The notes beneath the pieces are model-generated. The model did not search any database, was not told where the DNA came from, and was given only the letters and a program-made list of their open reading frames with translations. This document shows, one piece after another, positions 5,740-64,000 of a DNA stretch of 64,000 bases. The DNA is from Synechococcales cyanobacterium bin59.metabat.ball.084 (GTDB taxonomy: Bacteria; Cyanobacteriota; Cyanobacteriia; Cyanobacteriales; Chamaesiphonaceae). The DNA is taken from NCBI GenBank assembly GCA_013297675.1, contig JAAFHZ010000003.1, forward strand, positions 1 through 64,000, in the 5' to 3' direction. Positions within the stretch are counted from its first letter, which is position 1. Every line of letters starts with the position of its first letter. The translations under genes were made by a program, and so were the position numbers.

Positions 5740-8700
5740 CTAAATTAGGGTTGAGGTGGCGATAGCAGTACGTATTTGATGGGCAAGTATTTCCACATGG
5801 GGATGGGTAAGCATCGTAAAGTGGTTGCCTGGAACGGGTTGAATAACCGGTGCTAGAGTTGTAAATTCTTGCCAGCCCAAATCATCAGTCGGGAGGTTAG
5901 AAGTGCCATCTTCGGCCTCACTGGAAACAAAGCAAGTGATTTGCTGTGGGTAGAGATGCTGCGGTTGATAAACCATCAGCACCTCATTGCGGTACACCTG
6001 AATGAGAGCACGGAGTTGTTCGGTGCTAGCTTCAGGAAAAAGCTGAGCATCTTGTAATCGGCTCAAGAAGTACTCTAGCTGGGCATTTGGAGTTAGAGTA
6101 CTGAGCATTTCGATCGATACATCTAAGCTGCGACCGTAAAGCTGTTCCAAAATCAGGGCAATTTCTTGCCACCAGTCGGCTTCGGTGGCTGTTGTGGTGA
6201 TTTGTTGATGGGGGGCACTGGAGTCGATAATGCCCAGAAAAGCCACTTTTTCGCCTTGCTGATGCAATTGATTGGCAATTTCAAAGGCTACCAGTCCACC
6301 AAAAGAGTGTCCACCTAAGTAGTATGGGCCTTGGGGTTGATGGGACTGAATGGCTTGAATGTAAGCCGTAGCCATTTCTTCTACAGTTTGATGTGGTGTA
6401 GAGTTGCCATCTAACCCCAGAGACTGTAAAGCATAACAGGGTTGATCAGAGCCAAGATAATGAGCGAGTTGATGAAGGTAAATGGGGTTGCCACCAGCTC
6501 CTGGAACACAGAAAAAGGTTGGCTGGGTGCCTCGGGGTTGCAGAGCAATTAAGGGGGACCAAACATCTGATTGGTGAGGTTCCCGCAGCCGAGTAGCTAA
6601 TTGACTAATTGTTGGGTACTGGAACAAGCTAGCAAGAGGTAATTTTTGGCTAAACTGCTGTTCGATTTTGGCCATTAGATGTACAGCCAAGAGAGAATGA
6701 CCGCCGAGATCAAAGAAATCATCATGGGTACTAATGGGATAAACCTGTAAAACGGTTGACCAGATTTCGGTGAGCTGCTGCTCAATGTGATCGGCAGGGG
6801 GGATAAAGAGCCGATCATCTGTATAGCTGTGGCTATCTGGTACTGGTAAAGCTCGTCGATCTAACTTGCCATTGGGAGTTAAAGGTAGGCTAGGTAACTG
6901 CACAAAAGCTGCCGGAATCATATAGTCTGGCAATTTAGAACGCATGTGAGTGCGCAGATCTGCCTTAGAAATTTGCTGGTCGTCGGCAGCAACAATATAG
7001 GCAACAAGTTGTTGTAATCCAGGTCGATCGGTAAGGCCAATAATTATTGACTGGTATATAGCAGGATGTTGCTGCAAGACGGTTTCGATTTCGCCTAGTT
7101 CAATGCGGAAACCACGAATTTTGATCTGCTGATCGCTGCGCTCTAAATATTTGAGATTGCCATCGGCTAAGTAAATGCCTCGATCGCCGGTTTTATAAAG
7201 TTTGGCACTTGCCAGAGTGCTAAAAGGATTACCAATAAATCGATCATTGGTGAGGTCGGGGCGTTGCCAGTAGCCACGACCAACCCCGGCACCGCCCAGA
7301 TAAATTTCGCCCGGTACACCGATCGGCACCGGCTGAAGATGACGATCTAAAAGATAGACCTGCGTATTGGCAAAAGGGCGGCCAATAGGAACTAAACCAT
7401 CACCAAATTTCTCGATCTCTGTGGTTTCAAAATAGGTGCTGTCGATGGTAGATTCACTCACCCCGTAAGAATTAATCAGGCGAGCCTGTGGACGAAGTAG
7501 CCGCTGGAACTGTTGATATTCTTGAACATACCAACTGTCGGAACCCAAAATAACCAAGCGCATAAAATGTAAGTTTTGGCCAGTTTCTTCTAGGTATTGT
7601 GCTAGGTTCCGAAATACTGCCGGTACAAATTCAGCACAGTCTACAGCGGCAGTTCGCAGCAGATGGTACAACTGGTCGGCTGCCAATAAAGTAGCGGTAG
7701 GACAAATAACTAACTTGCCGCCAGAACATAAAGCTCGTACTAAGTCACCAGCAAAAACATCAAAAGAAAAGCTGGCCATTTGGAGGTGGCTAGTGCAACG
7801 ATGCAGCCGATAATCTTCTGCCCAGGCAAAAAAGGCATTGACGAGGTTACGATGTTCAACCATCACGCCTTTGGGCGTACCAGTGGAGCCAGAAGTAAAA
7901 ATTAGATAGGCCAAATGATGAGGTTCAACCGTTGCGGGCAAGTTGGCATTGCTCCAGCAGGCAATTTCTGGCCAGTCTTGGTCTAATAATACTATCGGAA
8001 CCTGCAAGTTGGGCAAGTTGTTTAATAGGGCTGTTTGGGTGAGAATAACCTGTGCTTGGCTATTGACGAGCATTAAGTCTAGTCGATCGCGAGGGTAGGC
8101 AGGGTCTAAGGGTAAATACGCTCCACCCGCTTTGAGAATTCCTAAGATACCAATCACCATTTCTAGGGAACGTTCTACCGAAATACCGACGATTACTTCT
8201 GGCCCTACTCCCAACATCCGGAGATGTCTGGCGAGCTGATTGGATTTGAGATGGAGTTCTTGGTATGTAAGTTGATCTTCGCCATACACTACAGCGATCG
8301 CCTGGGGATTGCGCACAACTTGTTGAGCAAACAGCTCATGCATACAGAGCACTGGATAAGTAGTGGTGGTGTCATTCCACTGATGTAGCAAGATTTGTTT
8401 TTCGGCAGTGGTGAGTAGTGACAGATATTCAATTGACTGGTCTGGATTGGTAACAATGCAGGTAAGTAACTGTTGGAAATGGCCGGTGAGACGTTGGATC
8501 GTCGTGGCCTCAAATAAATCAGTGTTGTATTCCCATTCAGCTTCTAGACCTTCTGGACTGGGTTCGATCGACAGGGTTAAATCGAAGTTAGCAGTCACCT
8601 GATCTACGGGCAGCGGTTGTAAGTGCAGATCGTCCGTGAGGTCGATTGCTACTACCGGGGTGTTTTGCAGAATAAACATTACCTGAAACAGCGGCGTATG

Positions 8701-11700
8701 GCTGAGGTCTCGGGCGGGCTGAAGGGTTTCAATCAACATTTCAAATGGTAGATCTTGATGACTGTAGGCTGCCAATGAAACTTCTTTGACCCGCTCTAGC
8801 AATTCTTTAAAGCTAGGATCGCCAGAAAGGTCAGTGCGTAATACTAAAGTATTGACAAAAAACCCAATTAAGCTCTCAGTCACTTGCTGTTGACGGTTGG
8901 CGATCGGTGAACCTACCAAAATATCTGACTGACCACTATAGCGGTATAGCAACACGTTAAAAGCTGCTAACAGGGTCATAAACAGTGTGCCGCCTACTTG
9001 TTGGCTCAGAGCTTCCAATTTTTGACTGACGGTTGCTGGAATTTGAAAATGATGGGTGGCTCCGTGATCAGTTTGGATGGCTGGTCTGGGTCGATCGGTG
9101 GGCAGGGTGAGTAACGTGGGAGCATCAGCTAGTTGGGTACGCCAGTAATTTAGCTGTCGATCGAGTACGGCTCCTTGTAACCATTGACGTTGCCAGAGGG
9201 CAAAATCTGGATATTGAATGGAGAGATTGGGTAGAGGAGAATATTCGCCAACATAATAGGCATCATAATAAGCCGCAAGTTCTTGAATTAAAACTCCCAT
9301 CGACCAACCATCAGAAATAATATGATGCAAAGTCAGCATCAGGACGTGCTGATCGCGACAGTGAATGAGGGTGGCTCGTAGCAACCAATCTGTCGCTAAG
9401 TTGAAAGGACATTGAGCCGCCGTGGTTGCTAACTGTTGGATCTGAGCTTCTTGTTGGTCGATCGACAAATGACGTAAATCGATACTTGCTAATGACCATG
9501 ATTTATTGGGGTGAACGACTTGGAGTGGTTGATTATCAACTACTACGAAATTAGTACGCAGCGATTCATGACGTTGAACAACACTGGCTAAGGCGTGGTG
9601 TAGAGCCGCTAAGTTGAGCTGTCCTGTCAATCGCACTGCCGTAAACATGTTGTAAGCACTACTCTGCGGCTGTAGCTGATCAAGGAACCACAACCGTTGC
9701 TGGGAAAAGGATAGAGGGATCGAATCAGCCATATCTCTGGGCAGCAGGGGGATTGCATTACTTGGGATAGCTTGTTGTATTGCCTCAGCTAATTGAGCAA
9801 TAGTTGGAGCGGCGAATAGCGTTCGCAAAGGGATAGTTACCGCAAGCTCCTGTTGCAAGCGAGCAATAACTTGAGTGGCCAATAGAGAGTGACCACCTAG
9901 TTCAAAAAAGTTGTCATAAATGCTGAGTTGATCAAAACCTAAAAGACCGCTCCAAATTTTGGCCAAGGATTGCTCGATCGGCGTATGTGGAGACACTATT
10001 TCTCGATTTGATCTGTCTAGGGTCGGAGCAGGAAGCGCCCGGCGATCAATTTTGCCACTGGGGGTGAGGGGAAGTTGTGGTAAGGACATGAGTAATGCTG
10101 GCACCATATACTCGGGCAGACGTGCTTGGAGAAAAGCCCGTAGGTGGTTGTTGTCTATATCACCAACTAGATAAGCAACTAGCTTAGGAGTTGGATCGGT
10201 ATGTAAAACTACGACTGCTTGTTGAACGGTGGGATGTTGGCACAGCAAATTTTCAATTTCGCTTAACTCTACTCGGAATCCTCGAATTTTTATCTGTTCA
10301 TCTAGACGACCAAAGTATTCGATCTGACCATCTGGGAGATAGCGTACCAAGTCTCCAGTGCGATAGAGGCGTTCATGGGGAATAAACGGATGGGTAACAA
10401 AGCGTTCGGCGGTGAGTTTTGGCTGGTGAAGATAGCCTCGGGCTACCCCGGCACCACCAATGTAGAGTTCGCCAAGAATCCCGATCGGGACGGGCTGCTG
10501 CCGACTATCTAGAACATAGGTTTGGACATTGGCCAAGGGCCGACCAATAGGAACTTCGGGACTGGTCAGCGGATGCCCTGAAAGTAAGCAAACCGTGGCT
10601 TCTACCGTTGTTTCGGTCGGGCCATAGGCATTCATTAACAGCGGATATGCTCCAACTTGTGCCTGCCACAGACGAACTTGCTGGGGTAAGACTTTCTCAC
10701 CACCAATAATTACTAATCGGACACTAGGAGGGATGGTGCTGTTTGTCAATTCAGCAGTCAACTGTTGCCAATAGGCAGTGGGCAAGTCTAGCACTGTGAG
10801 TTGGGCGCGATCGCAATGTGCCCAGAACTGTGCCTCTGAATCGATCATCTCTGCTGGACGCAGATATAAAGTAGCACCCTGGGTTAGGGTCGGAAAAATT
10901 TCTTCTACGGACACATCAAAGCTAATCGAAGAAAACTGTAACACTCGATCGAGTGGAGTAATGGAGTAAGCCTGAGTGGCTGCCCAACAAAAATGCACTA
11001 AATTTTGCTGAGTAATCATTACTCCCTTGGGAATACCCGTCGAACCAGAGGTGAAAATAACGTAGGCTAAGTCGGCAGGTGTGAGCGAACTAACAAGGTT
11101 AACAGTACTATGGCTATGAAGCTGCAGGCTGATTTCATCGAGACAAATTATCTGTGCCTCGGTCGCGGGTAAAGTATCTCGCAGCTTGGAAGTGGTGAGA
11201 AGATAAGTAGCCTGACTCGCCACCAACATTTGTTCTAGACGCGCTGATGGATAGGCGGGGTCGAGTGGTAAATAAGCACCACCTGCTTTTAGAATTCCCC
11301 AGAGACTTACTATCAAGTCGATCGAGCGCTCTAAACAAAGACCTACCAGGCTGTCTGCTGTTACCCCCTGTTGTTGTAAGTAATGTGCCAGTTGGTTAGC
11401 ACGGGCATTGAGTTGGTGGTAGGTAAGCTGTTGATCACCACAAATGACCGCAATGGCTTCGGGAGATTGAGCCACTTGTGCCTCAAATAGCTCATGAATA
11501 TAGTGATCGGTGGGATAGTCTGCCTGGGTGTTATTCCAATCTTGAATTAGCTGCTGTTGAGCGACAGGAGTCAGGAGTGACAGCCGATCGATCTCTTGGT
11601 GGGGATTAGCCACAATGCTGACGAGCAGGGTCTGAAAATGCTCAGCCCAACGCTGGATTGTACTGGCATCAAATAAATCGGTATTGTATTCCCAATCAGC

Positions 11701-20685: not shown

Positions 20686-20731
20686 GGCTGGTGGGGAGAA
20701 GTTGAATACTTGAGGAATTTTTAAATACTAT

Positions 20732-25168: not shown

Positions 25169-25209
25169 CTTTTTTTACACAATTAATAGTGATGTGGCGG
25201 TGAAATTTA

Positions 25210-40608: not shown

Positions 40609-40625
40609 AAGATCTATTTCCTGTA

Positions 40626-49697: not shown

Positions 49698-49731
49698 AGT
49701 ATTTCTGTAGTTAGTAGTGCTTGCTGAAGAT

Positions 49732-52700
49732 TTAGGAATTAAGCGCGGTAAATGATGCTATCAAGTCGTCTAGTTCTGCTTGATTTAAGCCAGCCTCTGG
49801 GAAGTCTGAAGGTGTATAAGCCCCAGCCTGCGGGTCTTGGCAATGTTCAATTAAGCCTCGCAAACAAATCATGAACTGGGTAGATAACTGCTCTACATCG
49901 ACAACCTCAGTAGCGTCATAAGACCAGCTTAGCTGGAGCTGCTCGTCTACGACTAAGCTACTCACCGCCAGAGAATAACTACAAAGCTGTTCAGAATGCT
50001 GTTCTGCTCCGCCAGATTCATTGGCCAAAGCCCAGTTCCCCTCACTATCTAGCGTTTGCTCAAATTGACCCAGGTAGTTAAAGCTAATATCTGCTGTATA
50101 AGTTGGCAGAAGGTGTTTCTGTGGGCTGAGATAGCGCAGTATCCCATAGCCAATACCTCGTTGGGGGATTTGACGTAGTTGTTCTTTTACGGTTGTCAAT
50201 TGGCGACCAAGATCATCTTCATCAGACAAGGATAAACAAACCGGGAAAATAGTGGTAAACCAGCCCACAGTCCGCGATATATCTAAGTCACTAAATAACT
50301 CCTCCCGACCATGGCCTTCTAATTCAACTAGGAGAGATCGATTCCCTGTGCAATCAGCCCAAGCTTGCAGCAAGGCCGTGAGCAGCACATCATTAATTTG
50401 AGTGTGGTAAACCGCTGGTACTACTTGCAGCAGTAGTTGGGTTTCTGGCGCACTGAGGCTGGTAGTGATTTTGCGCAGAGTAGCGACGGTCGATCGAGGA
50501 CGTACTGGGGGGTCAAATACCGGAAGCTGGTTTTGCCACCAAGTTAATTCAGAGTCTAAAGCGGTTGTTTGACTATATGCTGCCAAGCGCTCTGTCCAAG
50601 TTTGCCAAGCCGTAGTTTTAGGTGGCAATTGCACCGCTACCCCCTGGCAACATTGTTGATAGGCAGTCAGCAGGTCTGCCAACAAAATACGCCACGAAAC
50701 CCCATCTACTACCAAATGGTGAATAATCAGTAACAAGCGACCTGGTTGCTCTGAGCCAGCTTGATATAAAACAGCTTGTAGGAGTTTACCAGTAGCTAGA
50801 TCTAAACATGCCTGAAATTTTTGACTTTGTTGTTCAATGGCTGTTGCTAAATCATTTGGAGACAGAGCAGAGAGATCAATCACCGCAAGTGGCCAAATTG
50901 GCAGGGGTTCGGTATGGCACGGCTGCCAGTTGGTAGCAAATTGTAAGCGCAGCGCATCATGATGAGCCAACACTGCCTGCAAAGCGCGATCAAGCTGCTG
51001 AATCTGTATATTGGCAGGCACCTGTAACATCACCGACTGATTAAAATAGTGCGGCTCAGTCAACTGTTGAGCAAAAAACCACTGCTGAACCGGAGTTAAA
51101 GATGCTTCTCCAGTTACTAGACCCTGAGGAGCTAATATCTTTTGGGTAAATTGATCAGCCACTTGATTAGCCGCTTGATCAGCCACGGTGGCCAAAGCTT
51201 GAATCGACTGGTGGTTAAAGAGCTGCTGAGCCGTAATTTGAATTCCAGCCTGCTGTGATCGAGCAATGATTTGCAAACTTAAAATAGAATCACCACCCAG
51301 TTCAAAGAAATTATCTTTGATCCCGATTTCAGCAATACCCAATACCTCCGACCAAATGCTAGCTAAGGTAGATTCTACCGGGTTACTGGGGGCCACAAAC
51401 TCTTGACTACGCTGCCATTCTGGTAGTGGCAACGCTCGCTGGTCTACTTTGCCATTGGCCGTGAGGGGCAAATGAGCCATAGTCACAAAGGTAGCCGGTA
51501 CCATGTAATCGGGCAGTTTGGTGCGAATAAATTTATCTAGCTCCTGAGCGGTGGCTTCAGTTACTACATAAGCAACTAAACGCTTATGATTTTGAGCATC
51601 TTTTTGGACAATTACAACCGCTTCCTGAACCAGCGGATGCTGGGTAATTAATGCTTCAACCTCACCCAACTCAATCCGAAAACCTCGAATTTTGACCTGT
51701 TGGTCAATCCGACCCAGATACTCAATTTCACCGGTTGGTAAGTAGCGCACTAAGTCCCCTGTGCGGTAAAGTCGTTGCCCAGCAGCGAATGGGTCTATCA
51801 CAAATTTACTGGCAGTCAGTTCGGGTTGATGCAAGTACTCCAAAGCCAGCCCAGTACCACCAATGTATAGCTCTCCCGGCACCCCGATCGGCACCGGTTG
51901 TTGGTGTGAGTCAAGAACATAGATATATGTATTGCTTAACGGATGACCGATCGGAATATTGGTAGCCGCAGCATCTATATTGGTGATTTCAAACCAAGTA
52001 GCAAAAGTAGTGCTCTCAGTAGGGCCATAAACATGCAGTAAATGCTCGGGTGCCCCCGCAGTAAGAATTGCCTTAACCCATTGTGGATCGACTGATTCTC
52101 CGCCAAATAGGAGGTAGCGCAATTGCTGAAATACTGTGGGTACAATGCTTGCCAGCCGATTAAAAAGAGCTGTGGTCAAAAATAGGGTAGTGACCTGATC
52201 TTGTTGCAGATGAGTAGCAAACTCCAGCGGCGACATTAATACGGCTGTCGGGACGATCGAAATACTCGCCCCGTTCAACAGCGCTGCCCAAACCTCGAAA
52301 GTAGTGGCATCAAAAGCGCTGTTGGCTGCTTGGGCAATGCAATCACTCGGATCAACCTGGATGTAGTTAGTATCAATCACCAACTGACTGATTGCTTGAT
52401 GAGGAATTACTACCCCTTTAGGCTTGCCCGTAGAGCCAGAGGTGTAGATAACATAGGCTGGATCATTGCCGGTGATTGACTGTGGCTGAAACAAGTCTAC
52501 AGATGTTGGCCAGCTCGAACGATCGCCTGCCCAGTCATCTAGACAAATTACTGACGCGGTGGTTGTAGGCAATCGATCGAGCAAGGCAGATTGAGTTAAG
52601 AGTAACGATAGTTGGGTGTCTGCCAAAATTAAAGCTAGCCGATCAGTAGGAGCGCTGGTATCTAATGGCACATAGGCTCCCCCCACCATCAAAATTGCCA

Positions 52701-55700
52701 GCATACCCACAATCATTTCGGGAGAACGATCTACCAATAGCCCCACCAACTGAAGAGAAGCTACTTTTTGTTGTTGGAGATGAGCCGCCAAACTCGTCGC
52801 CCGCTCGGCCAACTCCTGATAGGTGATCTGATTATTTAGATGTTTAATAGCAATTGCTTGAGGTGTACGCGCTGCCTGTGCCCAAAAGAGTTGTGGTAAA
52901 CCCACCTGATCGAAATCAGGATTGGGGCACAGGTCGGTATTTTGACCGCCGGTCAATAAGCGCTGGTGCTCGGTAGCCGTCAACATCATCAGGGTCGTAA
53001 TGGGCTGATCGGGGTTAGTAACTACTGCGGTCAATAATTGCTGATAGTGCAATGCTAGTTGCTTAATGGTCGCAATCTCAAACAGGTCGGTACTATATTC
53101 CCAAGTGCCTACATATCCTTGATCGGTGAGATCAATAGTCAAAGTTAAATCAAACTTAGCCGTGCCGTTATCAACCAAGCTAGGAGTACAAACCAAATCT
53201 GGCAGTACCAAATCGGTGAAAGGAGTATTTTGCAGCGCGAAAGCCACCTGAAAAACCGGACTGTAGCTTAAATCACGCTCTGGCTGTAGTGCCTCCACTA
53301 CTAGCTCAAACGGCGTATCCTGATGGGTGTAAGCCTCCAGAGTGGTTTCTCTCACCCGCCCGAGTAATTCCCGAAAACTGGGCTGATCGGCAAGATCCGT
53401 GCGGAGCACTAAAGTATTGACAAAAAAGCCGATCGACTTTTCGAGTTCTTGGAAATTACGGTTAGCGATCGGAGTCCCCACAACCAAATCAGTCTGACCA
53501 GTATAGCGATATAGCAAAATATCAAAAATCGCTAATAATGCCATAAACATAGTAGTACCAGCAGTCTGACTCACCTGTTCTAATTCGATCGTGAGCTGTA
53601 GCGGCAGTAGCTGTTGATACTGTCTTCCCTGGCCACTGGGAACTGGTGGGCGGGGGTGATCGGTCGGTAAAGCTAAAATTGCCGGAGCATCGGCCAATTG
53701 TGTTTGCCAGTAAGCAAGCTGAGTTTTGCCACTGTTACCAGCCAAATACTGGCGCTGCCAGTGGGCAAAGTCAGCATATTGAATTGTCAATGGTGGTAAG
53801 GAAATAGCATCACCCCTCAGGAGCGCCGGGTAAATGCTGGCAATTTCTTGTACCAGTACCCCCACCGACCAGCCATCTGCAGCAATATGGTGCAGGGTCA
53901 GTAACAAAGCATAGTGATCATGGCTAATTTGTAAGAGGGTCGCACGCAAGGGCAAATCTGCACTGAGATCAAAAGGCTGTTGCGCTGAGCGTTGCACATA
54001 ATCATCGACGGCTCGTTGAGGATCAACATGATGCTGAAAATCGAGCACTTCCATTGACCAATCAACTGCTGTTTGGATAGTTTGTATCGCTTGACCATCT
54101 TGTTCTTGAAAGGTTGTCCGCAGAGCCTCATGTCGATCGAGCACTAGTCGGAGTGATTCTTCTAATACAGCAGGTGCTACCGCTCCCCGGATGTATAGCC
54201 TAGTAGGAATATTATAAGAGGCTTGATTGGTGGCCAGTCGATCTAAAAACCACAAACGTTGTTGGGCAAAAGAGAGCGGCAGGGGAGTGGTGCGATCTAC
54301 CGGCTGTAAAGAGATTAAGTCATTCCTGGGTTGAGCTGTAGCTATTTCGATCATCAGCTCAGCAATAGTGCTAGCTGTAAACAAACTGCGCACCGGCAGT
54401 TCTACCCCCAGGGCAGAACGAATTCGTGACACAAGCTGGGTTGCTAATAGCGAATGCCCACCTAACTCAAAAAAGTTGTCATGAATACCTACCCGATTCA
54501 CCTGGAGCAATTCGCACCAAATCTCTGCCAACAACACTTCATCAGCGGTCTGAGGAGGCACATAATCCACCGTCTGCAATACTTCTGGCCGGGGCAAAGC
54601 GCGGCGATCAACCTTGCCATTGGGGGTGAGAGGAATTTCGGCCAAGAACAGACAAATATTGGGAATCATATATTCCGGCAATTTTTTCTGGAGCACACGG
54701 CGCACCTCTGCTGTAGTCAGGGTGATTTCAGGTTGGCAAACAATATAGGCTACCAACTGCGACTGACCAGGCCGATCTTCCCAGACCAAAACCGTCGCCT
54801 GTTGAATTTCTGCTTGAGCCTGCAAAACAACTGCAATTTCGGCTAGCTCAATGCGTAAGCCTCGGATTTTCACCTGTTGGTCGATGCGGCCTAAATATTC
54901 CAAATCACCCGTGGCATTGTAACGGGCTAAATCGCCAGTTCGATATAGTTTGGCTGCTGGCTGGTTACTAAATGGATCAACAATAAAGTGGTCGGCGGTC
55001 AGATCTGGTCGTCCATCATATCCTTGGGCAACACCTACGCCTCCGATATACAATTCACCGGGTACACCAATGGGTGAGGGCTGAAGCGTTGGCTCTAAAA
55101 CATAGAGCTGCACATTGGGGAACGGTCTGCCTACCGGTACCAGCGCCTCATGGGGTAAGTCTGCAATAGTTTTGGTTTCAAAATAACAACTATCGATCGT
55201 GGCTTCACTCACTCCATAAGAGTTGATCAAGCGAGTGTGGGCACCACAGAGCTGCTGCCATTGTTGATATTCCTGCACATACCAGCGATCAGAACCCACT
55301 GCTATTAAATGCATTTGGCTTAAGTTTTGCCCGGTATTAACCAAATATTCTGCCAAAAGTCGCATCACAGCAGGCACAAACTCGGCGCAGTCGATTTTTG
55401 CCCGTTGAATTAAACCATAGAGTTGTGCTGGCTCTAAGAGATAATCCCGAGGACAGATCACTAGTTGAGCGCCGCTGGCTAAGGCGCGAATGTAGTCTCC
55501 TGCAAACACATCAAAAGAGAAACTAGCCATTTGTAAATGACTACGGGTATCTCGGAGTTGGTAGGCCGATTCCCAGCCATGGTAGGCATTCACTAAGCTG
55601 CGATGGCTGACCATTACGCCCTTGGGATTGCCGGTAGACCCAGAGGTATAAATGACGTAGGCCAAACTAGCCGGGTCGATCGAGCATTCCAAATTGGTGG

Positions 55701-58700
55701 TGGGCGAAAGGGCGATTGTCGGCCAATCTCGGTCTAAATAAACAATGGCGACAGGGGCTTGTGGAATGGGCGTAGTAATCGTGGTAGCCGTTAATAGGCA
55801 GTTGACCTGACCATTGCTCAGCATATAGGCCAGCCGATCGACTGGGTAGCTAGGATCTAGAGGCACATAAGCAATGCCTATTTTTAGCACAGCCAAGACC
55901 GCCACTAAGGTATCGCCAGAGCGTTCCAAATAAATGCCGACTCGTCCGGTCACGCCCTGGGACTGTAGATAATGTGCTAACTGATTAGCACGGTTGTTGA
56001 GTTCTTGGTAGGTCAGACATTGATCATCCCAGACCACTGCTAAAGCTTGAGGGGTACGAGCAACCTGAGCTTCAATCACCTGATGTAAGCATTGATCGGC
56101 ATAGTGTTGCACGGTGCCCCGTGACTGTGCTAGCAGTTGCTGCTGGGCAGTTGTGGTCAGTAGTGGTAACTGCTCGATCGGCAGTTTGGGGTTAGCTACA
56201 ATCGCCGTCAACAAATGCTCAAACTGCTCGGCCATCCGCACAATTGTAGCTCGATCAAACAAGTCGGTGTTGTACTCCCAATCACCCACCAAACCCGTTG
56301 GTTGATTTTCTAAGGTCAGGGTCAGATCTAGCTTCGCAGTAAAATTCTCGACCGCTAAGGTTTCAATCACCAAGTCTGGCAAAGGTTGAGACTCGATCGG
56401 ATTAGCTTGATCTAAAATTAGCATCACCTGAAATAGTGGCGAATGGCTGAGATCTCGCTCTGGTTGCAAGACTGCTAGCAACTGCTCAAAAGGCACATCT
56501 GGATGGGTGTAGGCATCTAAAGTTACTCGACGCACTTGATGCAATAGTTCTTGGAAACTGGGGTTGCCAGCCAAGTCAACTCGGAGCAATAAGATATTCA
56601 AAAACAAGCCAATTAACTGCTGAGTAGCTGGTTGGTTGCGACTAGCAATTGGTGATCCCACTAAAATATCAGTCTGGCGAGTATGACGATAGAGCAAAAT
56701 ATCAAACGCAGTCAATAGGGTCATAAACAGCGTGACACCCATTTTTTGACTCAGTTTTTGGAGTTGATCAGTTAACTCCACCGCAAGCCTGAACTGGTAG
56801 TGAGCGCCATTGACAGTTTGAATTGCTGGGCGCGGTCGATCGATCGGCAGTTCTAACACCGTAGGCACATCAGCCAATTGCTGCTGCCAAAAATCTAGTT
56901 GGGTTTGCAGTGTTGCTCCTTGTAGCCATTGCCGTTGCCACAGGGCAAAATCAGCATACTGAATAGCTAAAGGGGGCAAGGGGTGTGGTTGGTTGAGACA
57001 AAGCGCTGGGTAAATCGCGGCAATTTCTTGCACTAGTACAGCCATCGATAACCCGTCGGCAATAATGTGATGCAGAACTAACAGCAAAATTGATTCTGTC
57101 GGTGAAACTTCCCACAGAATTGCTCTGATCAAAGGATCGCTGTCTAATTGAAACGGTCGCTGTGCTTCATTAGTGATGAGTTGCTGTATCTCTGCGGAGC
57201 TTTGGCCGACGGTGATTTCTGTAGCTAATCGCCAATCTAACTGAGGATGAATAACCTGTACTGGCTGACCTTGCTGGCTGACAAAATTAGTCCGCAATAT
57301 TTCATGGCGCTGAATAATCGTTTGGAGCGTCTGCTCTAAAATCGCCGTCTGTACCTGTCCCCGGAGACGAACGGCAGCAGGCATATTGTAAAACGCACTA
57401 TGAGGTTCTAGTTGATCTAAAAACCATAAACGCTGTTGGGCCAAAGAAAGTGGCAAGTTTTGTCGATCAATAACCGCTTTTATGTCTAAGGTGTCATTGG
57501 GTAAAAGATCTACAGCAGTTGCTGCTGGAGTATTTACCCATAATTTAGCACCGCGCATTTCTTGAATAGCAGCTTGCACCGCTTGCACAATTTGATCTAG
57601 ATCGGCATCTGTATGAGCAGTGGAGAGAAAGCAGTTGCGCCCTTCCCACACATAAACTCCATGGAGTAACAAATGTTGGAAAAAGATATCAAAATTACCA
57701 CTATAGGTAAAGCGGAACAAAGAGCCAAAATACACTATCTGCATCGGGATAGCCTGCTCAGCAAAATATTTATTCAACCGTTCCGCCAAGGTGGCGGTGC
57801 GTTGGTTGAGTTGCTGATAAAGTTCTGGGCCAGCATCTTGCAGATATTGTAGTACTGCTGCGGCTACAGCCATTCCTAAATGATTTTTATTGAAGGTGCC
57901 AGCAAAAAATGTCCGCTCAGCACTGGGATAAGAGCTATCGCCATACTGCCACCAACCACCGTCAATGCCATCTAGGTAGTTTGCGGTGCCAGCCACTACG
58001 CCGATCGGTATCCCGCCACCTACGATCTTACCGTAGGTGACAATATCAGCCTGAACCCCAGCCCAAGCTTGGGCACCACCAGCCTGAATCCGAAAACCCA
58101 CCAAAACTTCGTCAAAGATAAGTGCAATTCCGGCTGCTGTAGTTAATTCTCGTAGCTGCTGCAAAAATTCACGAGGTTGCAGATCGGGGCGACGCGCTTG
58201 GACTGGTTCCACTAAAACCGCTGCCAAATCCTGAGCATGTTGCTGAAGCATTGCTAGCGAACCTGCGGGATCATCATAATTTAGCACCAACACATCAGCA
58301 ACAGTACCGGGCAAAATACCAGGTGCGCTCGGCAGTCCTTGCTGCTCCAAACCTGCTTTGGCCAAAATGCCATCAAAATGTCCATGATAAGAACCGGCAA
58401 ACAGAGCAATTTTGGGACGACCACTGGCTGTGCGGGCAAGGCGAACAGCAGTCATTACTGCTTCTGTGCCAGAGTTACAAAAGGCTACTCGTTCTACTCC
58501 AGTCAATTTGCAAATTAGCTGGGCAACAGTCCCTGCATGATTGGCTTGGGGACCAATTTGTATTCCCCGTTGACACTGTGCTGCAATTGCTGCGGCGACA
58601 AAATCAGGGTTGTGGCCAAATAGCAATACCCCAAACCCCATGGTTAAATCGATGTATTCGTTGCCATCAATATCCCAAAACCGCGCACCCTGAGCACGCT

Positions 58701-61700
58701 CGCCAACAATTGGATAAATCAGCTCTTTGGTAGAAGGCCGAAAACCAGCCGTAGCACGACTATCTGCCAACATCGCTCGATCGGCCTGAGCGCGTTGCTT
58801 AGAAGCGGCTGTTTGCTGATTATATTTAGCCACAAAACTCGCTGATAGAGGCGCTACTGGTAAGCGATTGGGAGGTGTTTCTGGCGGAGTGCTGAAGCTT
58901 TTAACTGCTACTGGCAGAGCATCCGGTGAGGATGGAGGTTGCGCCGGTAATTTAATAGCAGTTTCTAAGCTATTGACTCCCTGTAGTAGCTCCAACTGTT
59001 GAGCAAACAGGCTAGACATACTAGCAATTTGCTGCTGCATAACTGTCGTAATTGCCGACTCGTGCTGCTGATCAGCAATTTCAACCGCACCGGCTCCATT
59101 TCCAGCAAAATTGCTAGCGACCATGTTTTTCGATTCGTGTAAAGCAGTTTCTGCCAGCGCAGAATTAGATCTCGGAGGGGAACCCACCAGCACCGATGGG
59201 GAAAATATTTCTGGAGGTAGTTGACGATCTAGATACTCTGCCAAGGCCGCTACCGTACTTACTTCTTCAAATAACTGGCGCAGAGTGACTTTTACTCCAT
59301 AGTTGACTTCTACCTGATTTACGGCTTCCACCAACACCAAAGAATCAGCACCAATTTCTAGGAAGGGAGTGTGAACACTAATATCAGCTACATTAGCCTT
59401 CAGCAGTCGAGCAACCATCTGATTTAAGTTGTTCAGCAGTGTAGTTAATCGATCGCCAGTAGTAATTGTGTCGGTTGGATGAGCTGTTGTCATAGGAGAA
59501 CGATATTCATTAACAGAACTGGCAGGGTGAATCGGAGCAGAAGATAATGTTGCAGAACTTGAGTCGGGCATAGGTTCACCGCCCAACCAATACCGCTGAC
59601 GCTGGAAAGGATAAGTGGGCAATGAAAGACGTTGACGACCATAGTCTTGATCGAAACCCGACCAATCTATAACTACACCTTTGATCCACAGTGCTCCTAA
59701 GCTAGTTAAGAGCTGTTCCCAATCTGCTACACCCGATCGCAAACTGGGTAGCCATAATAGCTCGGGGTCAGAAATAGACTGTTTGCCCAAGCTGATTAAC
59801 GTCGGTTTAGAACCAATTTCTAGGCAAATGTGGGGATGTTGCTGTTGCAAGGTGGCCAAACAGTGGGTATATTGCACTGGTTGCACAAGATGCTGTACCC
59901 AATATTCAGCATCAATGGTGGTAACTAGTTGACCAGTAACGTTAGAAATTAACGGAATTTGCGGCTGTTGATAAACAATCTTTTGAGCAACAGCACGAAA
60001 CTCTGCCACCATGGGCTTTAGTAAAGGCGAGTGAAAGGCCCGAGTGCTAGCGAGTTTCTGAGTTCGAATTCCATTCGCTGCCAAGGTTTCACAAATGCTG
60101 GTCAGCGCCGCAGCATCTCCTGAGAGTACGGTATTTTCGGCGCTATTATAAGCTGCAATCACTACTTGCTGACCAGTAATAGTTACCAGCGCAGCAATAG
60201 CTGTTGGGCTGGCAAAAACTGCAACCATTTCGCCCGGGGGAGTAAGTTCTTGGGCATAACGAGCACGTTGTACCACTAGTTTTAAAGCATCAGCTAAACT
60301 AAACACCCCAGCTAAGCAGGCAGCTACATATTCACCCAAGCTATGACCTAAGAGTAATGTGGGCCGAACGCCCCAATTAGCCCAAACTTGAGCGATCGCA
60401 TACTCAATGGCAAAAATGGCTGTTTGACTATATAAAACTCGATCCAACAAATTTTCCCCCACAGATGTGGGATAGAGAGCCTCCAATAGTGAATGCTCTA
60501 GTTCAGGCTGTAAAAGCCGATCGCACTCTAACAATGCCTGTCGAAATATTGGCTGAGTTTCATACAGAGTGCGCCCCATATTCACATATTGAGATCCCTG
60601 ACCAGTGCAGAGATAGGCGATCGAAAGCGCTGTACTGCGGCTAGTCTGACCGGTTTGGATGGCTGAATCCGCCGCATTTTGTCGGTAAGATCGTAAATGC
60701 TGGGCTAAGTCTGCACCTGTTGCCCCCCAGACACTCAGGCGATCGGCAAAAGCATTGCGGCCACTGTTGGCAGTAAAACAAATATCTGCAATCTGCTCTG
60801 AACCAGTTAAAACCGGCAGATAGCGATCGACTAATTCATGTAAAGCCGCCGAATTTTTGGCGGACAGATTCAGAATATGCAAAGGACGCTCGACTGCTGA
60901 GTTTTGCCGCGCCCGCACTGGTGGTGTCCCCAAAATTAGATGGGCATTAGTACCCCCAATACCAAAAGAACTCACTCCTGCATACTGTACACCTGACCAA
61001 TTGGTGAGTTGAGTATTTACCATAAACGGAGTTTCAGCAAAAGGAATTAAAGGATTCGCCTGGTTGAAATGCAGGCTGGGAGGAAGTTGGCCATGCTTCA
61101 TCGCCAATAACACCTTTAAGAGCTGAGCAATGCCCGCAGCGGCTTCCAAATGTCCAATGTTGGTTTTCACCGAGCCAATCCGACAAAACTGCCGCTGGGG
61201 AGTGTATTTGCGAAATGCCTTGGTCAGACCTTCAATTTCGATCGGGTCGCCCAAAGCCGTTCCTGTCCCGTGAGCTTCGATGTAGCTAATGTCTGCGGCA
61301 CTTAATTGAGCAGATTGCAATGCCTGCTCAATTAGCTCAGCCTGAGAACGCGGGTTAGGAGCCGTCAGGCCATTAGTCTGACCATCATGATTCATGGCCG
61401 AACCCTTGATCACACCATAAATCTGATCGCCATCTGCCACCGCCTGAGCCAGCGGCTTCAGCAAGACCGCACCCGCACCCTCGCCCAATACAATCCCATT
61501 GGCCGCCGCATCAAAAGTCTTGCATTGACCATCAGGAGAATGCATCTTCATCCGGCTCATGCCCGCATAGTATTCTGGTGATAGTTGCAGGTTTACGCCG
61601 CCCACGATCGCTCCGGTACAGTCTCCTTGGCGGATACTTTGACAGGCCAAATGTATTGCTACCAGTGACGAAGAACACATGGTATCCACCAGCATCGAAG

Positions 61701-64000
61701 GGCCGCGCAAGTTCAACAAGAAAGACAAACGATTGGCAATAATGGCATTTTGATTGCCAATCCCCGCACCGTAATCACTCGCTGCCAAAAATGGCTCAAT
61801 GCGCCGATAGTAACCATTGTTACTACAACCCACAAAAACCCCGATCGGCTGTTGAGCTAACCGGTCAGCAGCATATCCGGCATCTTCGAGAGCTTCCCAG
61901 GCTACCTCTAAAAATAAGCGCTGTTGAGGATCCATCAAGGCTGCTTCGCGGGGCGAAATTTGGAAAAACAAAGGATCAAACTGATCTATATCAGCCACAA
62001 AGCCCCCCCAGCGGGAAGAAGTCTGTAGCGCCGTAGTGGGCTGGGCTGAGTACCAGTCCGCATTCTGCCAACGGTGAGCGGGCACTTCGGTAATAGCATT
62101 ACCACCTCGCTGCAACAATTCCCAAAATGCCGATAAATTTGGAGCCTGGGGAAACCGTCCAGACATCCCAATAACAGCAATATCCATATCGGCTACTCTG
62201 TCTGCTGGGTTCTCATTATGGGGAACAGCACTGAGAAATGGTGTGCCCAGACCAGCGCCGATCGGCTCTGCAAACCCATAAGTCTCAATTAAATGGGCTG
62301 CTAATTGCCGTGGAGTAGAATATTCAAACAGCAGGGTAGGAGATAAAGAAATTTCTAGATGTGATTCTAAAGCAGTAATTACTTCTACTGCTTTAAGTGA
62401 ATCGATGCCAAAGCTATGAAAATTTTGATCAACTGCAATCTTTTCTGGAGGCTGCTTGAGAGCGATCGCCAAATATTTCACAATCGTGGCGCTCAGAGTT
62501 TGCTGATCAATGGCCATGATTCCAGACTTAACTGCCGGAGCTGCTGGGACAGGGGCAACTGATGGTAGCCAACTAGCCGCAGTAGTGGGTAAAGCTGTTG
62601 CTGGTGTCTGCGGCGGTAGTGGTGCCGCTGGTTCTCCATTGATCAAATTCTTTAACCGATTCAGCGATGGCAGATGGTTCAAAACAGTCTCGGCAGGTAC
62701 CCCAAAATCAATCAGACAGGCGATTTCATTGACCCCGATCTGCTGTAATTTTTTGACCATCTCCAAACAAGATTCAGGTGTACCAAACAAAGCACTAGTT
62801 TGGTAATAACGTTCGAAGGCATAATCGAGCAATTTTTGTTGTTCGGCCAAACTGAGCTGCGCCAAATCTTGTGAACTCTGCTGCCATAGATTTACCGAAC
62901 TCTTAATATATTCAATAAATGGTTCCTTTACCAGGTGGCGAACTACCGCCAAGTCTTCACCCACAAAGGTATGCAGCATCAAAGTTACTTGGCCAGTAGC
63001 CGGATCATGACCATGACGGGCGCGAGCTTCACGGTACAAAACAATTTTTTCTGCCAGATCGGCCACTGGCTGAAATAGTAAGGCCGTTAAAATATTTAAA
63101 CCGCGCTCTCCAGCTTCAATAAAGCGCTCTTTCCCCCCAGTACAAGTCACCCAGACAGCGAGATCAGTCTGTTGGGGCAAAGGATAAATCTGTACTTCTG
63201 TCAATGCTCCGACCCCATTAGGGCGGCTGACTTTGCCCCCTTTCCACAAGTGCTGTACTTCGGCAATTCCGGCAAACAAAATCTCGGCACTATCAGCATA
63301 AGCATCTGGAGCCAAAACAAAATCGTTAGGATTCCATCCCCGAGCAAAAGCCAAATCTACCCGACCGTGAGAAAGGTTATCGACAACTGACCATTCTTCC
63401 GCCACCCGCAGCGGATCATGCAGAGGCATCACAACACTGCCAGCCCGCAAGCGCAATCGCTCGGTAGTTAAAGCCAAAGCCGCATTCACTACCGAAGGGT
63501 TAGGGTATAGTCCCCCAAAGGCATGAAAATGACGTTCCGGAGTCCAAACTGCGGTAAAGCTATGTCGATCGGCAAACTTAGCCCCGGCCAAGAGCAACTT
63601 ATATTTATCATCAGCAAATTCAGCTTCGTCACTAGAAAAATATAATAGACTAAACTGCATTTCTGGAGTAACCGGAGTAGCTACTTCCTGCATAGTAGCA
63701 CCCGTATCATGGACTATTTGCAAACTCCCTTCTAAAAATGCTTTCTTACAAGCCTGACGCTGAATTTTGCCACTCGATGTCTTCAAAATACTGACGGGCT
63801 TCAATAAAACAATGCGGTGAACTAGCAATTCATGATCTTGAGAAACCGCCGCTCGGATGGCCGCAAGAACCGCCTCGATCGGTAGCTGGCGCAGGTACTG
63901 GCGCTCTACCTCTTGCACGATCACCAATTGCTCTTCACCTGCTACTTCAACGCTAAATGCTGCGCTGGCAGAAGCTTTTAAAGCAGGGTGACTACCTGCG
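49732..64000 (-). CDS. FAAL/monooxygenase/PKS/aminotransferase-NRPS starter protein, 5' end outside window
   Basis: About 4755 residues are visible; the frame stays open to the right edge. Residues counted from the edge: 1-100 end of a fatty acyl-AMP ligase (SSGKIQRQACKKAFL); 115-460 luciferase-like monooxygenase (FSLLYFSS, WTPERHFHAFGG); ACP near 530 (GIDSL); KS with MCSSS near 772; AT with GHSLGEY near 1215 and RAFH, malonyl-type; ACP near 1548 (GADSL); GSA-type PLP aminotransferase with the Lys in TYGKIVGGG near 1988; then C-A-PCP-C-A-PCP-E. Pocket codes: DVGEAGSID, one change from ornithine, and DAFFLGVTF, isoleucine. The layout is like that of iturin/mycosubtilin synthetase MycA: a fatty acid is adenylated, extended with malonate and aminated at C3, then joined to the first residues. 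The tail NQAELDDLIASF is a likely docking element. The track start at 63927 (TTG) is internal, not the true start. Confidence 0.93.
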   Translation of the reverse strand, partial: AGSHPALKASASAAFSVEVAGEEQLVIVQEVERQYLRQLPIEAVLAAIRAAVSQDHELLVHRIVLLKPVSILKTSSGKIQRQACKKAFLEGSLQIVHDTGATMQEVATPVTPEMQFSLLYFSSDEAEFADDKYKLLLAGAKFADRHSFTAVWTPERHFHAFGGLYPNPSVVNAALALTTERLRLRAGSVVMPLHDPLRVAEEWSVVDNLSHGRVDLAFARGWNPNDFVLAPDAYADSAEILFAGIAEVQHLWKGGKVSRPNGVGALTEVQIYPLPQQTDLAVWVTCTGGKERFIEAGERGLNILTALLFQPVADLAEKIVLYREARARHGHDPATGQVTLMLHTFVGEDLAVVRHLVKEPFIEYIKSSVNLWQQSSQDLAQLSLAEQQKLLDYAFERYYQTSALFGTPESCLEMVKKLQQIGVNEIACLIDFGVPAETVLNHLPSLNRLKNLINGEPAAPLPPQTPATALPTTAASWLPSVAPVPAAPAVKSGIMAIDQQTLSATIVKYLAIALKQPPEKIAVDQNFHSFGIDSLKAVEVITALESHLEISLSPTLLFEYSTPRQLAAHLIETYGFAEPIGAGLGTPFLSAVPHNENPADRVADMDIAVIGMSGRFPQAPNLSAFWELLQRGGNAITEVPAHRWQNADWYSAQPTTALQTSSRWGGFVADIDQFDPLFFQISPREAALMDPQQRLFLEVAWEALEDAGYAADRLAQQPIGVFVGCSNNGYYRRIEPFLAASDYGAGIGNQNAIIANRLSFLLNLRGPSMLVDTMCSSSLVAIHLACQSIRQGDCTGAIVGGVNLQLSPEYYAGMSRMKMHSPDGQCKTFDAAANGIVLGEGAGAVLLKPLAQAVADGDQIYGVIKGSAMNHDGQTNGLTAPNPRSQAELIEQALQSAQLSAADISYIEAHGTGTALGDPIEIEGLTKAFRKYTPQRQFCRIGSVKTNIGHLEAAAGIAQLLKVLLAMKHGQLPPSLHFNQANPLIPFAETPFMVNTQLTNWSGVQYAGVSSFGIGGTNAHLILGTPPVRARQNSAVERPLHILNLSAKNSAALHELVDRYLPVLTGSEQIADICFTANSGRNAFADRLSVWGATGADLAQHLRSYRQNAADSAIQTGQTSRSTALSIAYLCTGQGSQYVNMGRTLYETQPIFRQALLECDRLLQPELEHSLLEALYPTSVGENLLDRVLYSQTAIFAIEYAIAQVWANWGVRPTLLLGHSLGEYVAACLAGVFSLADALKLVVQRARYAQELTPPGEMVAVFASPTAIAALVTITGQQVVIAAYNSAENTVLSGDAAALTSICETLAANGIRTQKLASTRAFHSPLLKPMVAEFRAVAQKIVYQQPQIPLISNVTGQLVTTIDAEYWVQHLVQPVQYTHCLATLQQQHPHICLEIGSKPTLISLGKQSISDPELLWLPSLRSGVADWEQLLTSLGALWIKGVVIDWSGFDQDYGRQRLSLPTYPFQRQRYWLGGEPMPDSSSATLSSAPIHPASSVNEYRSPMTTAHPTDTITTGDRLTTLLNNLNQMVARLLKANVADISVHTPFLEIGADSLVLVEAVNQVEVNYGVKVTLRQLFEEVSTVAALAEYLDRQLPPEIFSPSVLVGSPPRSNSALAETALHESKNMVASNFAGNGAGAVEIADQQHESAITTVMQQQIASMSSLFAQQLELLQGVNSLETAIKLPAQPPSSPDALPVAVKSFSTPPETPPNRLPVAPLSASFVAKYNQQTAASKQRAQADRAMLADSRATAGFRPSTKELIYPIVGERAQGARFWDIDGNEYIDLTMGFGVLLFGHNPDFVAAAIAAQCQRGIQIGPQANHAGTVAQLICKLTGVERVAFCNSGTEAVMTAVRLARTASGRPKIALFAGSYHGHFDGILAKAGLEQQGLPSAPGILPGTVADVLVLNYDDPAGSLAMLQQHAQDLAAVLVEPVQARRPDLQPREFLQQLRELTTAAGIALIFDEVLVGFRIQAGGAQAWAGVQADIVTYGKIVGGGIPIGVVAGTANYLDGIDGGWWQYGDSSYPSAERTFFAGTFNKNHLGMAVAAAVLQYLQDAGPELYQQLNQRTATLAERLNKYFAEQAIPMQIVYFGSLFRFTYSGNFDIFFQHLLLHGVYVWEGRNCFLSTAHTDADLDQIVQAVQAAIQEMRGAKLWVNTPAATAVDLLPNDTLDIKAVIDRQNLPLSLAQQRLWFLDQLEPHSAFYNMPAAVRLRGQVQTAILEQTLQTIIQRHEILRTNFVSQQGQPVQVIHPQLDWRLATEITVGQSSAEIQQLITNEAQRPFQLDSDPLIRAILWEVSPTESILLLVLHHIIADGLSMAVLVQEIAAIYPALCLNQPHPLPPLAIQYADFALWQRQWLQGATLQTQLDFWQQQLADVPTVLELPIDRPRPAIQTVNGAHYQFRLAVELTDQLQKLSQKMGVTLFMTLLTAFDILLYRHTRQTDILVGSPIASRNQPATQQLIGLFLNILLLRVDLAGNPSFQELLHQVRRVTLDAYTHPDVPFEQLLAVLQPERDLSHSPLFQVMLILDQANPIESQPLPDLVIETLAVENFTAKLDLTLTLENQPTGLVGDWEYNTDLFDRATIVRMAEQFEHLLTAIVANPKLPIEQLPLLTTTAQQQLLAQSRGTVQHYADQCLHQVIEAQVARTPQALAVVWDDQCLTYQELNNRANQLAHYLQSQGVTGRVGIYLERSGDTLVAVLAVLKIGIAYVPLDPSYPVDRLAYMLSNGQVNCLLTATTITTPIPQAPVAIVYLDRDWPTIALSPTTNLECSIDPASLAYVIYTSGSTGNPKGVMVSHRSLVNAYHGWESAYQLRDTRSHLQMASFSFDVFAGDYIRALASGAQLVICPRDYLLEPAQLYGLIQRAKIDCAEFVPAVMRLLAEYLVNTGQNLSQMHLIAVGSDRWYVQEYQQWQQLCGAHTRLINSYGVSEATIDSCYFETKTIADLPHEALVPVGRPFPNVQLYVLEPTLQPSPIGVPGELYIGGVGVAQGYDGRPDLTADHFIVDPFSNQPAAKLYRTGDLARYNATGDLEYLGRIDQQVKIRGLRIELAEIAVVLQAQAEIQQATVLVWEDRPGQSQLVAYIVCQPEITLTTAEVRRVLQKKLPEYMIPNICLFLAEIPLTPNGKVDRRALPRPEVLQTVDYVPPQTADEVLLAEIWCELLQVNRVGIHDNFFELGGHSLLATQLVSRIRSALGVELPVRSLFTASTIAELMIEIATAQPRNDLISLQPVDRTTPLPLSFAQQRLWFLDRLATNQASYNIPTRLYIRGAVAPAVLEESLRLVLDRHEALRTTFQEQDGQAIQTIQTAVDWSMEVLDFQHHVDPQRAVDDYVQRSAQQPFDLSADLPLRATLLQISHDHYALLLTLHHIAADGWSVGVLVQEIASIYPALLRGDAISLPPLTIQYADFAHWQRQYLAGNSGKTQLAYWQTQLADAPAILALPTDHPRPPVPSGQGRQYQQLLPLQLTIELEQVSQTAGTTMFMALLAIFDILLYRYTGQTDLVVGTPIANRNFQELEKSIGFFVNTLVLRTDLADQPSFRELLGRVRETTLEAYTHQDTPFELVVEALQPERDLSYSPVFQVAFALQNTPFTDLVLPDLVCTPSLVDNGTAKFDLTLTIDLTDQGYVGTWEYSTDLFEIATIKQLALHYQQLLTAVVTNPDQPITTLMMLTATEHQRLLTGGQNTDLCPNPDFDQVGLPQLFWAQAARTPQAIAIKHLNNQITYQELAERATSLAAHLQQQKVASLQLVGLLVDRSPEMIVGMLAILMVGGAYVPLDTSAPTDRLALILADTQLSLLLTQSALLDRLPTTTASVICLDDWAGDRSSWPTSVDLFQPQSITGNDPAYVIYTSGSTGKPKGVVIPHQAISQLVIDTNYIQVDPSDCIAQAANSAFDATTFEVWAALLNGASISIVPTAVLMSPLEFATHLQQDQVTTLFLTTALFNRLASIVPTVFQQLRYLLFGGESVDPQWVKAILTAGAPEHLLHVYGPTESTTFATWFEITNIDAAATNIPIGHPLSNTYIYVLDSHQQPVPIGVPGELYIGGTGLALEYLHQPELTASKFVIDPFAAGQRLYRTGDLVRYLPTGEIEYLGRIDQQVKIRGFRIELGEVEALITQHPLVQEAVVIVQKDAQNHKRLVAYVVTEATAQELDKFIRTKLPDYMVPATFVTMAHLPLTANGKVDQRALPLPEWQRSQEFVAPSNPVESTLASIWSEVLGIAEIGIKDNFFELGGDSILSLQIIARSQQAGIQITAQQLFNHQSIQALATVADQAANQVADQFTQKILAPQGLVTGEASLTPVQQWFFAQQLTEPHYFNQSVMLQVPANIQIQQLDRALQAVLAHHDALRLQFATNWQPCHTEPLPIWPLAVIDLSALSPNDLATAIEQQSQKFQACLDLATGKLLQAVLYQAGSEQPGRLLLIIHHLVVDGVSWRILLADLLTAYQQCCQGVAVQLPPKTTAWQTWTERLAAYSQTTALDSELTWWQNQLPVFDPPVRPRSTVATLRKITTSLSAPETQLLLQVVPAVYHTQINDVLLTALLQAWADCTGNRSLLVELEGHGREELFSDLDISRTVGWFTTIFPVCLSLSDEDDLGRQLTTVKEQLRQIPQRGIGYGILRYLSPQKHLLPTYTADISFNYLGQFEQTLDSEGNWALANESGGAEQHSEQLCSYSLAVSSLVVDEQLQLSWSYDATEVVDVEQLSTQFMICLRGLIEHCQDPQAGAYTPSDFPEAGLNQAELDDLIASFTALNS
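51151..51186 (-). repeat. 12-bp in-frame triplicate in a PCP-E linker
   Basis: Three units of TTGAT(C/T)AGCC(A/G)C encode VADQ-AANQ-VADQ in the linker between the last carrier and the E domain. It is a slippage-type expansion in a flexible segment. Confidence 0.85.

Follow-up and report, generated by a model that had tools for sequence, protein, structure and literature searches.

Hybrid lines of nonribosomal peptide synthetases (NRPS) and polyketide synthases (PKS) that make beta-amino lipopeptides are a known broad kind. The puwainaphycin synthetase (puw) starts with a fatty acyl-AMP ligase (FAAL), elongates by a PKS and uses an aminotransferase (AMT) and a monooxygenase (MO) to arrive at a beta-amino lipid, together with an NRPS that has a thioesterase (TE) (PMC4219810). 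In the iturin and mycosubtilin systems one protein holds FAAL, PKS, aminotransferase and an NRPS module (PMC4219810), and the laxaphycins and scytocyclamides (lxa) are FAAL-started beta-amino lipopeptides of 11-12 residues (PMC8471579). Here we analyse an assembly line encoded in a 64,000-nucleotide window, bases 1-64000 of the 97,789-bp contig JAAFHZ010000003.1 (C144), from Synechococcales cyanobacterium bin59.metabat.ball.084 (GCA_013297675.1; 4.64 Mb in 220 contigs), whose host is placed only as a separate genus in the family of Chamaesiphon polymorphus, the assembly containing no SSU rRNA. With FAAL, PKS extension and an in-line AMT all present before the first condensation (C) domain, the line belongs, as judged by its domains, to this broad kind. 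Our preferred reading, which we consider quite probable, is that this hybrid line is complete, sits on a plasmid and makes a cationic beta-amino lipopeptide.

The puw line and the one in the window share the FAAL start, the PKS elongation, AMT and MO, and an NRPS chain with TE. They differ in that puw has FAAL and ACP on separate genes, an additional reducing and methylating PKS module, the MO beside the AMT after the PKS, and other residues; neither its module order nor its residues are found here. The fusion seen in iturin and mycosubtilin recurs in gene A of the window. These two systems are not known to have an MO or a mid-chain PKS, and they yield non-cationic heptapeptides. The laxaphycin family is made by two diverging lines with different residues, whereas the window holds a single line with other codes, and the words ornithine and statine are absent from a review of the family (PMC8471579). 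What is shared with the anabaenopeptin synthetase (apn) is limited to pocket codes, for Arg and by inference for D-Lys; its product differs, being a cyclic ureido hexapeptide with no lipid.

No characterised cluster with the same order was found in the open-access literature. The cluster might still belong to a known cyanobacterial lipopeptide of the laxaphycin, puwainaphycin, microginin or pahayokolide/tychonamide type and merely have gone unrecognised. FAAL, AMT, MO, D residues and the scale of 10-12 residues are indeed common property, but none of these types, as described, accommodates the four or more basic residues, the KS-AT-KR module inside the chain or the order of the residues, and the open-access literature gave no match by strain names, codes or chemistry. 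We regard this explanation as unlikely.

Layout of the assembly line

The line is encoded by five collinear genes on the minus strand (5740-65475), here called A to E in order of transcription, whose intact frames in the window comprise more than 4731, 3023, 5132, 1478 and 4981 aa. Gene A crosses the window edge by 1,475 bp and is completed by the contig beyond it (49732-65475, 5247 aa). A preliminary description of this DNA gave the extent as 5740-64000; the operon also takes in a stand-alone thioesterase and an exporter gene. The intergenic gaps measure 17-71 bp and the frames are open over 60 kb; open frames of 15 kb with a complete NRPS domain series cannot be due to chance. In the following list, A and T are the adenylation and carrier domains and E the epimerase; substrates are predictions from the pocket codes.

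49732-64000 in the window (to 65475), minus strand: gene A, FAAL-MO-ACP-KS-AT-ACP-AMT, C-A(Orn)-T, C-A(Ile/Val)-T-E; lipid loading, elongation and beta-amination, residues 1 and 2
62641-63660, minus: MO domain of gene A, luciferase-like FMN monooxygenase (MupA/Atu3671 family, TIGR04020), between FAAL and the first ACP, FAAL-associated clade
57556-58800, minus: pyridoxal phosphate (PLP) aminotransferase (AMT) domain for beta-amino installation, PLP lysine region YGKIVGGG present
54577-56031, minus: A domain 1, Orn, code DVGEAGSID
51412-52842, minus: A domain 2, Ile/Val, code DAFFLGVTF, module ending in E (D residue)
40626-49697, minus: gene B (3023 aa), C-A(Thr, DFWNIGMVH)-T-E, C-A(Val-like, DAFFIGGTF)-T-E; residues 3 and 4, both D
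25210-40608, minus: gene C (5132 aa), C-A(Lys-like, DIEDIGTVV)-T-E, C-A(Ala, DLFNNALTY)-T-E, C-A(Leu, DAWFLGNVV)-T, C-A(Ile/Val, DAFFLGVTF)-T; residues 5-8
37717-39144, minus: A domain 5, read as D-Lys, code DIEDIGTVV
20732-25168, minus: gene D (1478 aa), KS-AT-KR-T, one malonyl extension (HAFH motif) and ketoreduction of residue 8, giving a statine/isostatine-like unit
5740-20685, minus: gene E (4981 aa), C-A(unassigned, DPENIGAIT)-T-E, C-A(Pro, DVQFIAHVV)-T, C-A(Arg, DVEDIGAVE)-T, C-A(Orn, DVGEIGSID)-T-TE; residues 9-12 and release
10015-11442, minus: A domain 11, Arg, code DVEDIGAVE
5761-6525, minus: type I thioesterase (TE), GHSFG
4351-5718, minus: exporter of the major facilitator superfamily (MFS) at the end of the operon; the Calothrix gene in this position is 57% identical
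65547-66401: stand-alone thioesterase, 284 aa, operon member ahead of gene A
1544-3200, minus: ParB-like and ParA-like partition genes, outside the line

Domains were annotated with small hidden Markov models (HMMs) built from the cluster's own domains, and pocket codes were read by alignment to the GrsA positions, using a GrsA fragment that returns its known code DAWTIAAIC. The names for the Orn, Thr, Leu, Ala, Pro and Ile/Val codes follow published reference codes; a structure search with one A domain matched only generic A-domain structures. The full order is a loading module, twelve amino-acid modules of which six carry an E domain (residues 2, 3, 4, 5, 6 and 9), a mid-chain KS-AT-KR-T after residue 8, and a terminal TE. 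All 18 of 18 C/E histidine motifs are present, as are the carrier serines, KS cysteines, malonyl-type AT motifs, PLP region and TE serine motif; no LDD stereotype motif was seen in the KR.

C domains that accept a D residue (DCL) differ from those that accept an L residue (LCL). For 31 C domains from the window cluster and its relatives in Calothrix and Nostoc MG11, a tree separates the 16 with a preceding E domain from the 15 others as two clades (SH-aLRT 100), without exception, an agreement equalled in 0 of 200 label shuffles. Genes B and C each begin with a C domain whose preceding E sits on the previous protein, and both of these domains fall into the post-E clade; the tree therefore supports the D positions and the gene order A, B, C, D, E together. 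The domain and module order of the preliminary description is recovered by the HMM annotation; its Thr, Leu and Ala codes and the Orn code DVGEIGSID are re-read identically; and domain series, codes and tree all agree with its proposal of a D-rich beta-amino lipopeptide of 12 residues whose chain has a ketoreduced C2 unit in its middle part. It had also allowed for additional modules upstream, which were looked for and are absent. Because the first domain is the FAAL, preceded only by the thioesterase and then a divergent DevBCA-type exporter, the line is complete.

Loading-module monooxygenase and the lipid

The MO between FAAL and first ACP matches profile TIGR04020 with 501 bits. Its 80 best relatives in species-representative genomes sort into three architectures: FAAL-MO-ACP or FAAL-ACP-MO, AMT-MO-C, and MOs embedded in A domains. 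In a tree of these sequences the window MO falls into a clade of 21 FAAL-fused MOs and one unclassified row (SH-aLRT 99), separate from the AMT-MO-C type (support 100). Several FAAL-ACP-MO-C lines of this clade have no PKS extension or AMT ahead of the first C domain, so their MO must act on the loaded fatty acyl.

In the puwainaphycin line (PMC4219810) and in that for tychonamide and floridanemamide (PMC13252402) the MO works with the AMT to give a 3-amino-2-hydroxy acyl. This precedent makes it conceivable that the window MO, too, works only once transamination has taken place, in trans on the second ACP, and yields a 3-amino-2-hydroxy acyl as in puwainaphycins and microginins. The position of the domain speaks against this, as it precedes the first ACP instead of following the AMT, and its clade is that of loading-module MOs, with members in lines that have no AMT at all. 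Action in trans appears to us rather improbable, though it deserves more weight than a known product gone unrecognised. From order and clade the lipid is instead predicted to be 3-amino-4-hydroxy; this is a supported prediction and not a proof, because the tree has no root and its sequences were picked for their similarity to the window's own MO.

The FAAL-fused clade, in both its arrangements (L003-L021, L028), spans cyanobacteria, Ktedonobacteria, Acidobacteria and actinobacteria. Its members could be a general sign of alpha-hydroxylated lipid starters.

Homologous lines and the replicon

With the MO as query, Chamaesiphon polymorphus CCALA 037 gave a match of 83% identity; the matches in Nostoc MG11, Calothrix brevissima NIES-22, Nostoc WHI and a cyanobacterial metagenome-assembled genome (MAG) were 70-73% identical. 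A complete homologue lies on the 8.5-Mb replicon NZ_AP018207 of Calothrix brevissima NIES-22 (G009:C1:8293395-8352231). It shares the FAAL-MO-ACP-KS-AT-ACP-AMT start, Orn as first residue, D residues 2-6, the series Ala-Leu-Ile/Val followed by KS-AT-KR-T, the Orn-TE end, the MFS gene in last place and the DevBCA-type genes upstream. It differs in being chromosomal, in having 11 residues with three modules after the PKS, and in a different split of the B and C genes. By its codes the series is Orn, D-Phe, D-Thr, D-Leu, D-Orn, D-Ala, Leu, Ile/Val, C2, D-Arg, D-Thr, Orn. Its genes are about 47-57% identical to those of the window. Gene A is 73% identical to its counterpart in Chamaesiphon and 54% to that in Calothrix, while the PKS gene is 53-54% identical to those of Calothrix and Nostoc MG11. 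Nostoc MG11 contributes two contig fragments with a D-X, Pro, Arg end as in the window; Nostoc WHI and Chamaesiphon polymorphus hold the start of the line. The preliminary description had called the line unrecognised, which still stands for the open-access literature; the line is not unique, given the complete Calothrix homologue and partial ones in Nostoc and Chamaesiphon.

Not every candidate belongs to the family. Genome G555, suggested by its MO identity, was rejected as a different line (FAAL-ACP-MO-C-A(DILAICVIW)), and MAG bin-0982 does not have the same starter, reading FAAL-MO-ACP-KS-AT-KR without AMT. The Chamaesiphon contig C501 was rejected as the rest of that strain's homologue by its module order. 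This 39.5-kb contig is filled by a different D-rich NRPS (L101-L102) of at least nine modules, seven with E, with Val, Leu and Thr codes and the pockets DPENIGAIT and DPEDIGAIT, the former also found at residue 9 of the window. A further Chamaesiphon contig, C591 (Phe-E, DTEDIGTVV-E), cannot be joined to the homologue and may belong to it.

The MO type is rare: it occurs in 4 of 386 sampled genomes of the phylum at E < 1e-150 (the window's own included), in 2 of 11 genomes of the host's family, and at the cut-off used in 6 of 218 sampled genomes of the Calothrix family; not all of the genomes in the phylum and Calothrix samples are members of this line family. So sparse a distribution could speak for a cluster that has decayed or fallen silent on a plasmid, but the open frames, short gaps and preserved active-site motifs, and the exporters kept in place in Calothrix, leave little room for that explanation, which we hold to be very improbable.

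The molecule itself closes on itself. Window bases 1-123 are identical to 97667-97789 of the contig, and this 123-bp overlap lies inside a CRISPR array (L002:14503-14766; 37-nt repeat GCAACAACACCACCGAATCCCTATCAGGGATTGAAAC), of which it holds one whole spacer and part of another. Because the identical ends share one array, they join within it to a circle of 97,666 bp. The circle carries the partition genes listed above, a CyRepA1-like replication protein (164 bits against a curated cut-off of 200; 22-26% identity by tblastn to annotated CyRepA1 plasmids, among them a 100-103-kb plasmid of Synechocystis PCC 6803), a YhaV/PrlF toxin-antitoxin pair and the type I-D CRISPR genes Csc2 and Cas6; it is therefore very likely a plasmid. 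On sequenced plasmids megablast found no close relative of the PKS gene, and tblastn only matches below 60% identity.

Some neighbouring features are worth recording. The NRPS megacluster adjoins the type I-D CRISPR system on the closed circle. Upstream of the thioesterase the opposite strand encodes a DevB-type membrane-fusion protein, a DevC-type permease, a DevA-type ATPase and a histidine kinase, followed on the minus strand by a response regulator of LuxR type; these two, beside the DevBCA-type genes, and the YhaV/PrlF pair are entered at L001:7444-9461 and L001:13106-14019. The kinase and regulator are possible regulators of the cluster.

Basic residues and the predicted product

Three residues had been left as X in the preliminary description, two of which can be read. 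With the invariant lysine, the code of residue 11 becomes DVEDIGAVEK, an exact match to ApnA-A1 of genotype b in Planktothrix, for which the measured anabaenopeptins contain only Arg (PMC5311044, Table 2); residue 11 is best read as Arg. The anabaenopeptin family also has a conserved D-Lys (PMC5311044), and five clusters with the corresponding layout (A-T-C-A-T-E / C-A-T / C-A-T-C-A-T) in other cyanobacterial genomes served as Lys reference. In these clusters module 2 is the one that makes the D-Lys, and its codes are DTEDIGTVV, DAEDIGSVV, DTEDIGSVV or DTEDIGSVI, and DIEDIGTVV at residue 5 differs from the first of these at a single position, one that varies among the references themselves. 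Orn occupies position 5 in Calothrix and Nostoc MG11, so that a basic residue is kept there in all, and residue 5 is best read as D-Lys. A domains 5 and 11 (37717-39144 and 10015-11442) share 77% identity as a whole and 83% within the core yet have different pockets, Lys-type and Arg-type, an apparent recent copy within the cluster that was re-aimed between Lys and Arg. As a side observation, genome G301, whose cluster L155 is one of these five references, has two tandem ApnA-like genes (A-T-C-A-T-E) before one ApnB-like gene, which suggests that two anabaenopeptin starters share one line.

Residue 9 falls into a separate DPE(N/D)IGAIT group that is sister to the Lys/Arg group with an SH-aLRT of only 85, and Calothrix carries an Arg code at the equivalent position; the residue is probably basic or polar. 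Together with Orn 1 and Orn 12, Lys 5 and Arg 11 lead us to predict that the product should be cationic, a character that the preliminary description had missed, as it had the loading-module MO and the very likely plasmid nature of the molecule.

Biosynthesis could then proceed as follows. The FAAL would activate a fatty acid and load it onto the first ACP, where the MO probably hydroxylates C2 of the acyl chain. KS-AT would add one malonyl unit without ketoreduction, and the AMT would exchange the beta-keto group for a beta-amine, so that the fatty acyl becomes 3-amino-4-hydroxy. On it the twelve amino-acid modules, with the PKS module in mid-chain, would build the series Orn, D-Ile/Val, D-Thr, D-Val, D-Lys, D-Ala, Leu, Ile/Val, a KR-reduced C2 unit, D-X, Pro, Arg and Orn, with the C2 unit turning residue 8 into a statine/isostatine-like unit and D-X being selected by an uncharacterised pocket of the wider Lys/Arg group. 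Release by the terminal TE might close a macrocycle on the beta-amine of the lipid; a ring on the Thr, Orn or Lys side chains or plain hydrolysis are alternative outcomes. MFS and DevBCA-type pumps may export the product, which should be an amphipathic, cationic and protease-resistant lipopeptide. Its residues apart from the lipid and X9 add up to 1263.84 Da if Ile stands at 2 and 8; a cyclic product with Lys as X9 and a C16 3-amino-4-hydroxy lipid would weigh 1661.17 Da ([M+3H]3+ 554.73), with homologues differing in lipid length. By analogy with cationic lipopeptide antibiotics, such a compound would most probably leave the cell and be membrane-active towards competitors.

Several points weigh against this picture. 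The MO tree groups the domain with loading-module enzymes and does not prove which carbon is acted on. Orn 1, Orn 12, Arg 11 and the Lys-like residue 5 are predicted by pocket code only, and the Lys reading depends on reference clusters called anabaenopeptin by architecture, not by measured product. Among the reference codes none was found to match DPENIGAIT of residue 9, and DAFFLGVTF does not tell Ile from Val. The Calothrix homologue has 11 modules and other residues at several positions: the frame is conserved, not the exact peptide.

These lines could be the founding members of a new lipopeptide family in cyanobacteria, polycationic and rich in D residues, with a 3-amino-4-hydroxy lipid and an internal statine-type unit, carried on a plasmid in one lineage and on the chromosome in another, a proposal we put forward tentatively and at slightly less than even confidence. 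The described cyanobacterial beta-amino lipopeptides are not known for basic residues, and the predicted four or five of them, with six D residues beside the lipid, point to an action nearer that of the cationic antimicrobial lipopeptides. The loading-module MO gives a sharp prediction of lipid chemistry, contrary to the puwainaphycin rule. Calothrix brevissima NIES-22, a cultured strain with a complete homologue, opens the product family to a direct search by mass spectrometry.
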